Shown here in pieces: positions 2,691-6,209 of a DNA stretch of 64,000 nt. Under the pieces are notes generated by a model. The model was not told where the DNA came from. It saw nothing but the letters and a program-made list of their open reading frames with translations, and searched no databases. Location of the stretch: positions 62,001-126,000 of the forward strand of contig NZ_LVEG02000008.1 of assembly GCF_001614315.2 (NCBI RefSeq). Reading direction: 5' to 3'. Source of the stretch: Halofilum ochraceum. GTDB lineage: Bacteria; Pseudomonadota; Gammaproteobacteria; XJ16; Halofilaceae. The position numbers were made by a program, and so were the translations under genes. Every line of letters starts with the position of its first letter. Position 1 is the first letter of the stretch.

Positions 2691-4221
<1,531 letters not shown>

Positions 4222-4243: not shown

Positions 4244-4583
4244 GAACCACGAATGAACACGAATGGACACGAATGTTTCCCGTGGCCGGCGGACGTTCGT
4301 GGAGCTGCGCTGATTTCGGGTTGTTGTTTTCCGTGAAAATCGGAACCACGGATGGACACAGATAAACACAGATAAGGCGAACGATCCCTCGCCGCGGATT
4401 CGGACCGACCGGAGAGTTGGCTTGCCGCAGTTCTGGCCCCGCATGGACCGACGATCTTTATCTATCTGTGTTCATCTGTGTCTATCTGTGGTTCCGGCAG
4501 CGGTGCGTGGTGTCAGCGCAGCTCCACCAAACTCGGATGCTGCCCCGGAGCCATTCGTGTTCATTCGTGTTCATTCGTGGTTC
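4244..4583. repeat. Nested 340-bp palindrome between guaB and guaA
   Basis: Three pairs of arms lie one inside another. The outer pair, 4244-4275 and 4552-4583, is built of CACGAATG-type units and matches over 32 bp with one mismatch. The middle pair, 4299-4313 and 4513-4527, is a perfect 15-bp match (GTGGAGCTGCGCTGA). The inner pair, 4342-4375 and 4457-4495, is built of ACACAGATAA-type units and is imperfect. No open frame in the 413-bp gap looks genuine. The outer and inner arms share the start AACCACG and a 9-10 bp period, so they look like diverged members of one repeat type. The structure lies in the guaB-guaA intergenic space and could form a long RNA hairpin in a read-through transcript. 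Confidence 0.92.
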
Positions 4584-4634: not shown

Positions 4635-6209
4635 ATGTCCGATATCCACGACCAGCGCATCCTGATTCTCGATTTCGGTTCGCAGTACACGCAACTGATC
4701 GCGCGGCGGATCCGGGAGCTCGGGGTGTATTCCGAGATCCATCCCTGGGACTGGGACGACGCCAAGCTGCGCGAATTCAATCCGCGCGGCGTGATCCTCT
4801 CGGGCGGTCCCGCGTCCGTGGTCGGGGATGAGCCGCCGCGGGTGCCCGATGCCGTATTCGATCTCGGCGTGCCGGTGCTGGGGATCTGTTACGGCATGCA
4901 GGCCATGGCGGCGCAGCTGGGCGGCAGCGTCGAGACCGGGCATGAGCGCGAGTTCGGTTATGCGCAGGTGCGCGTGCGGGGCCATTCGCGGCTGCTCAAG
5001 GACATCGAGGATCACGCCGGTCCGCGCGGCGAGGGATTGCTTGATGTCTGGATGAGCCACGGCGATCGGGTGGGGCGTCTGCCGGAGGGCTTCCGCACCA
5101 TCGCCGAGACGGACAACGCGCCGCTGGCCGGGATGGCCGATGACGAGCGCGCGTTCTACGGTCTGCAGTTCCACCCGGAGGTCACCCATACGCCGCAGGG
5201 CGGGCGGGTCCTGGAGCGCTTCGTGCGCACCATCTGCGGCTGCGATGGGCTCTGGACCGCCGGCAATATCATCGATGACGCCATCGCGCGCATCCGGGAA
5301 CAGGTCGGCGACGGCGAGGTCATCCTGGGTCTTTCTGGCGGGGTCGATTCCTCGGTGGTGGCGGCGTTGCTGCACCGCGCGATCGGGGATCAGCTCGCGT
5401 GCGTATTCGTCGATAACGGGCTCCTGCGTCTGGGCGAGGGCGACAAGGTCATGGCGACCTTCGCCGAACACTTCGGCATCCGCGTGTTCCGCATTGATGC
5501 CGAAGACCGATTCCTCGACCGGCTCGAGGGCGTCGATGACCCCGAGGAAAAACGCCGCATCATCGGCAACGAGTTCATCGCCATCTTCGACGAGGAGGCG
5601 AAGAAGTTCCGCAACGCGGCGTATCTCGCCCAGGGGACGATTTATCCGGACGTGGTCGAGTCGGCGGGTACCAATACCGGCAAGGCGCATGTGATCAAGT
5701 CGCATCACAACGTCGGCGGTCTGCCGGAGCACATGAACCTGAAGCTGGTCGAGCCGCTGCGGGAACTGTTCAAGGACGAGGTGCGGCGAATCGGGGTGGA
5801 ACTGGGGCTGCCGGCGGATATGGTGTACCGCCACCCGTTCCCGGGTCCCGGGCTCGGGGTGCGGATCATGGGCGAGGTCCGCAAGGAATATGCGGATCTG
5901 CTGCGCCGGGCCGACGCGATTTTCATCGAGGAACTCGAGCGCCACGGTTTCTACGACCGCGTCTCGCAGGCGTTCGCGGTGTTCCTGCCGGTCAGATCCG
6001 TCGGGGTCGTCGGCGACGGGCGTGCGTACGAGTACGTGGTCGCTCTCCGGGCAGTGGAAACCGTCGATTTCATGACCGCGCACTGGGCGAACCTGCCGTA
6101 TGAATTCCTGGATCACGTGTCGCGGCGGATCATCAACGAGATCGGCGGTATCTCTCGGGTCGTCTACGATATCTCCGGCAAACCCCCCGCGACGATCGAA
6201 TGGGAGTGA
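4635..6209 (+). CDS. guaA: GMP synthase (glutamine-hydrolysing)
   Basis: GuaA aminates XMP to GMP using glutamine-derived ammonia and ATP. The 524-residue protein has an N-terminal class I glutamine amidotransferase domain with the nucleophile in GICYGMQ (about residue 85) and the His/Glu pair in [10 protein letters not shown]. An ATP-pyrophosphatase domain with LSGGVDSSV follows, and the C-terminal dimerisation domain ends in PPATIEWE. The start at 4635 ([17 protein letters not shown]) matches the family; no strong ribosome site precedes it. It completes the guanine-nucleotide branch started by guaB, but the palindrome between them makes separate or attenuated expression possible. Confidence 0.97.

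Follow-up and report, generated by a model that had tools for sequence, protein, structure and literature searches.

The palindrome that separates guaB from guaA in the DNA studied here can be compared with bacterial MITEs, REP/BIME repeats, the genes for GxxExxY (PDDEXK_3) proteins, and the 23S rRNA intervening sequences. Bacterial MITEs (for example ERIC, NEMIS/Correia, RUP, and Nezha) are described in PMC3733652 as gene-less, gene-adjacent elements of 70–300 bp that have terminal inverted repeats and give hairpin transcripts. The family to which the guaB–guaA element belongs is similarly short and gene-less, with terminal inverted repeats and ~55 dispersed copies in the studied genome (G000). 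It is also MITE-like in that its ends are common to a coding element, as two of its arm types (A arms in G000 and B arms in the sister species, G001) enclose GxxExxY, a candidate autonomous gene. The family differs from MITEs in having arms of tandem words phased at 10 bp, which change from one family to another, in its concentric shells and fixed middle motif with near-random linkers, and in its tie to a solo nuclease gene rather than to a known transposase.

The likeness to REPs and BIMEs (RAYT, IS200/IS605-like) lies in the mosaics and in the location of extragenic palindromes at gene 3' ends, and the occurrence of REPs inside longer palindromes has already been reported (PMC3733652). The guaB–guaA element is not a REP, however, as the family unit is a ~30-bp arm of 3 × 10 bp with a GAACC end and a REP is a 20–40 bp stem-loop with a GTAG/CGTC foot. 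A RAYT was also considered as the mobiliser and rejected: Y1 transposase genes are present, but the flanks of eight of them were inspected and none has such arms.

Matching arms flank one GxxExxY/PDDEXK_3 gene (TIGR04256, PF13366) in G000 and arms of the same grammar flank such genes in many phyla, but the guaB–guaA copy encodes neither a GxxExxY protein nor anything else, is too short to house the gene, and is therefore a gene-less derivative at best. The open-licence papers searched gave no description of GxxExxY as a mobile element, the name being met only in passing, and PF13366 was mentioned in an unrelated paper. Finally, 23S rRNA intervening sequences with S23 genes are small selfish elements with one small gene (PMC4990558), and an S23 gene of G000 likewise has inverted 7-bp tandem arrays. 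This four-helix-bundle gene lies between inverted arrays of the unit GGGCCAA (L067, G000:C20:45691-46005). Both this arm type and the gene family differ from those of the guaB–guaA family, whose elements lie outside rRNA. Arrays of another 7-bp unit, GGAGTCA, were seen near A/B-type palindromes in Phycisphaerae (L203, L207), and in L207 they surround such a palindrome at near-symmetric offsets (241/243, 301/303).

In the window, i.e., the whole 64,000-nt stretch that was analyzed, guaB (IMP dehydrogenase, named from sequence; a 492-aa ORF at 2743–4221, plus strand) is followed by guaA (GMP synthase; a 524-aa ORF at 4635–6209, plus strand, with relatives in 24 genomes). The two genes are 413 bp apart, compared to about 360 bp in the sister species and roughly 20–130 bp in other families where they adjoin, and in terms of spacing this bears out the claim of an earlier, sequence-only reading that the guaBA operon is interrupted. 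The palindrome (4244–4583, 340 nt) starts 22 bp past the guaB stop and leaves 51 bp between its right arm and the guaA start codon. Three concentric arm pairs, made of short units with a common start, had been noted in that reading, and an inverted-repeat search recovered them all. The outer repeat (4244–4280/4547–4583; 37 nt, 92%) contains 32-nt arms of the A type at 4244–4275 (left, plus strand; GAACCACGAATGAACACGAATGGACACGAATG, three 10-bp units with the start GAACCACG) and 4552–4583 (right, minus strand). The middle repeat (4296–4313/4513–4530; 18 nt, 94%) has as its core the motif GGAGCTGCGCTG at 4301–4312 (plus strand), which starts 57 bp from the start of the outer arm, and CAGCGCAGCTCC (GCGNAGC) at 4514–4525 (minus strand), 31 bp from the end of the inner arm. 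The inner repeat (4341–4374/4463–4496; 34 nt, 91%) holds B-type arms at 4343–4374 (plus strand, 42 bp from the start of the middle motif) and 4463–4494 (minus strand), between which is a central core of 88 nt (4375–4462, no strand). The complement of the left middle motif contains GCGCAGC, a GCGNAGC mini-hairpin sequence; d(GCGNAGC) is an unusually stable DNA mini-hairpin (PMC4686876).

Folded as RNA, the 340 nt had an energy of −195.6 kcal/mol (z −12.2) and none of 100 shuffles was equally good; folded as DNA, the same sequence gave a z of −11.5. No Rfam family scored above its gathering score over the palindrome, the only match in the window being a tRNA, and no sigma-70 promoter was predicted inside the element. 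A terminator scan of the element found one terminator-like site, on the minus strand, which is no more than was found in shuffles.

The wider family was described from 52 extracted genome stretches, and its counts rest on draft genomes and one close relative, with those of one pattern scan being lower bounds (at least the number given). The ~55 elements in G000 share one plan: an arm, the middle motif GGAGCTTCGCTG (written GGAGCTNCGCTG family-wide), a second arm of type B, C, or D, a core, and then the mirror image. The A arm (GAACCACGAATGNACACGAATGNACACGAAT) was found in 111 copies in G000 and 25 in G001, the B arm (CACAGAT words) in 35 and 102 copies, respectively, and the C arm (AACCAAAAAATGGACTAAAAATG) in 14 copies in G000; the D arm word is CACAAAATG. 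A reversed-pattern control had no matches in G000 against the 111 for A arms and 35 for B arms, and thus the arm copies are not due to chance. Elements with A arms make up ~0.5% of G000. Both A and B arms are absent from a third, more distant member of the genus (G002), and none of 34 genomes from other families contains the A arm.

Conservation within these elements is uneven. Outer arms and middle motifs are 94–97% alike between copies, while linkers are 49–62% alike versus 45–50% for shuffled linkers and yet are of almost constant length. Variation in the middle motif is mostly in the GCGNAGC loop, and the GC/GC stem hardly ever varies. Across the ~55 elements the middle motif starts 57 ± 1 bp from the arm and the inner arm nearly always follows at 41 ± 2 or 30 ± 2 bp, distances one helical turn apart, and arms of two, three, or more units move the next part by 10-bp steps. 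No covariation was found between left and right middle motifs, and between left and right arms of the A family there was none except at a single position, where the signal was weak (p 0.03); left and right variants are largely independent for the middle motif and most spacer bases. The 10-bp phasing, the quantised spacing, and this independence make the arms look like arrays for a putative protein that binds one face of the DNA.

Other kinds of change to the elements were also seen. In L013 and L019, part or all of the element is tandemly duplicated together with its flank. A 65-bp REP-like triple hairpin (ATT/GCTCGGCGC...GGCGAATC/TTTCGTG) is inserted in an A-arm unit, always at CATT^CGTG, at about ten loci in two species (L012, L026, L038, L042, L048, L069, L128, L137, L145, and L159). 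One copy (L132) is outside arms, and none was found elsewhere in the window.

The arms are also found around genes. In element L046 of G000, A arms enclose one of only two GxxExxY genes in that genome (TIGR04256, 128 bits), and at the orthologous site in G001 a GxxExxY gene, whose protein is ~60% identical to that of G000, is enclosed in B arms. Around the remaining GxxExxY genes of the genus, the inverted phased arms are of other kinds. In the same class, inverted phased arms above shuffled controls were found at 26 of the 34 loci examined (33 GxxExxY and one S23 gene), and in arm-bearing genomes of other phyla they flank 24 of 28 GxxExxY loci. GxxExxY is present in 25/29 arm-bearing genomes versus 35/229 genomes of the class, although the two taxon samples differ. 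On a tree of 60 nuclease proteins, the rows of which mix phyla and in which one genome can hold two arm classes, the class of arm word changes 4 times as opposed to 16.7 when shuffled (0/200 as low). The A and B arms belong to the AT class, as do those around L064/L065. In all three genus members the arm word of the resident nuclease is the dominant dispersed word (A in G000 and B in G001, by the copy numbers above, and CACGAAA in G002), and resident and dispersed words also agree in the majority of ten further genomes whose nucleases are of the AT class, with one clear mismatch. In a Terriglobia chromosome (G244, OX638355, L359–L373), at least 15 dispersed arm copies surround only the last 43 GxxExxY codons, and these arm/remnant copies are embedded in larger mosaic repeats.

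An AlphaFold model of the GxxExxY protein (pLDDT 94) has a PD-(D/E)XK fold, and the nearest folds are those of the Cas4-type SSO0001 (Z 9.6) and archaeal Hjc resolvases (Z 6–7). Conserved residues include D, E/D-x-K, and QxxxY, and a sequence search of solved structures with the protein returned nothing significant. Based on the model, GxxExxY is a small PD-(D/E)XK protein with a Cas4/RecB-like fold and a putative nuclease, fold alone being no proof of activity.

Comparison of G000 with its sister species revealed how these sites change. The flanks of elements are 84–94% identical between the two, and the orthologous sites mapped on both sides (a count over the extracted G001 stretches) are occupied in both species in 22 of 22 cases. 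Once the arms are masked, the interiors can be aligned at only about 6–9 of the 22 sites, and content has been replaced at about 13. About ten orthologous sites have outer A arms in G000 but outer B arms in G001, and there the interior is changed too. Between guaB and guaA, G001 has intact B arms, no left A arm, and a decayed right A arm that is split by the 65-bp triple hairpin. In G002, two orthologous sites are empty, and the orthologue of L009 is a nested palindrome composed of other words (CGCCAAG outer, CGCAGG inner). The full occupancy, the exchanged content, and this differently worded nest indicate that sites persist while their content turns over, and that nesting recurs with other arms. 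A target-site duplication could not be defined: there is no clean empty site between G000 and G001, whose mapped orthologous sites are occupied, and the sites in G002, which are empty or differ, are too diverged for exact ends. A pair of G001 sites that lack an element in G000 were considered as empty sites and rejected, as other genes are there in G000. No movement of elements was seen. At one site, a whole gene that looks like dihydroorotase in G000 (L318 1216-2486) corresponds to an A(B) element, i.e., B arms within A arms, in G001 (L145 3225-3624).

Overall, our data support, with moderate confidence, that the guaB–guaA spacer is a gene-less MITE-like derivative of a nuclease-encoding family, possibly handled in trans, that is turning over in place. 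The ends of the family would be the helically phased inverted arms, which in larger members enclose a single GxxExxY gene. The resident nuclease, alone or as part of a complex, may bind the phased arms and act on gene-less copies in trans, as suggested by the co-variation of nuclease and arm word. Counting against this reading are the lack of observed movement, the presence of only two GxxExxY genes in G000, and the greater decay of B arms inside A arms; moreover, the case for trans action is a correlation in three genus members and most of ten others, and the GxxExxY protein, a putative mobiliser, could also be cargo. New copies would land at a fixed position inside older copies or replace them, and a site would keep an element even as content and arm type change, giving nests of the kinds A(B), B(A), and A(A). 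In-place exchange with occasional fixed-position insertion would produce both the conserved sites and the Russian dolls, whereas random insertion at any point of a loop would not. When transcribed, the guaB–guaA copy would fold into a single long hairpin, and this may split the guaB message from that of guaA or have a part in their processing.

The main rival, which we regard as unlikely, is that these are static 3'-end structures (terminators, RNase III sites, or BIME-like) under selection, with arms changing in concert through the needs of a host protein or RNA and with no present movement. The location of the elements fits this, as 54 of 55 adjoin a gene 3' end (the other lies between divergent genes), the arm follows the stop codon at a median of ~17 bp, and at seven loci (L012, L018, L035, L037, L038, L040, and L041) the upstream frame stops at a TGA within the arm itself. 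Also in its favor are the very strong RNA fold, the conserved occupancy between sisters, and the finding that, in the middle motif and at most spacer bases, left variants are not associated with right ones. Against a static structure stand the identity of the arms with those that surround nuclease genes, their agreement with the nuclease tree across phyla, the dispersal of truncated-gene copies in Terriglobia, and the switch of outer arms from A to B, in which the interior changed as well, to the point of a different GxxExxY gene.

Repeated targeting of loops, with each inner palindrome arriving later and independently in the loop of one already present, had been proposed in the sequence-only reading. 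Nesting is systematic and not a matter of chance: in G000, every B arm (35 of 35) and every C arm (14 of 14) is within an element that also bears A arms, and independent random placement of the A and B families was rejected. The arm orders found are A(B), A(C), A(D), B(A), B(A(C)), and A(A), and the last three of these, together with the B and C counts, indicate that an element does lie within another of its kind. A precedent exists in REP dimers within longer palindromes of A. variabilis and H. neapolitanus (PMC3733652), and in A(A) elements the outer arms are the more decayed pair, which favors the loop model. The opposite is true of the A(B) elements of G000, in which the inner B arms are more decayed than the outer A arms, so that the inner shell is not always the younger. 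The fixed, helically quantised spacing also argues against simple random insertion, as do the two remainders in nested copies (about 60–84 bp), the sum of which does not match the commonest loop of un-nested copies (~117 bp). In addition, A(C) composites resemble one homologous family, with cores about 72–90% alike, and on this comparison many nested copies have probably spread as ready-made composites. Simple insertion into a loop is thus only partly supported, and as a full account we consider it improbable.

That a nucleoid-type or boundary protein uses the arms as arrays of binding sites, with nuclease cassettes merely exploiting the same sites, is very improbable, because, despite the ten-bp phasing, left/right independence, and extragenic location, the words differ by genome and follow the nuclease clade over unrelated hosts rather than the host.

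The wider family, the rule for the middle motif, and the nuclease link go beyond what had been noted from the locus earlier. No description of these arms was found in the open-licence literature searched, arm sequences included, and the putative family of mobile elements is apparently undescribed. More tentatively, it may represent an unnamed and widespread class of mobile element, in which a solo Cas4-like GxxExxY nuclease with cognate phased arms is accompanied by concentric derivatives that lack the gene and enter or overwrite one another at fixed sites just after stop codons, and in which a change of nuclease would re-letter the arms genome-wide.

These data give a large and apparently unnamed group of intergenic palindromes a candidate cognate protein in the taxa that bear the arms (Cyanobacteria, Planctomycetes, PVC, Acidobacteria, Desulfobacterota, Gammaproteobacteria, and archaea), and the GxxExxY/PDDEXK_3 protein, which occurs in many environmental genomes, gains a testable DNA target. 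They also point to repeat sites that stay in place from one species to the next although what they contain, and even the sequence of their ends, is exchanged, and the nested, site-specific turnover of repeats becomes directly testable.
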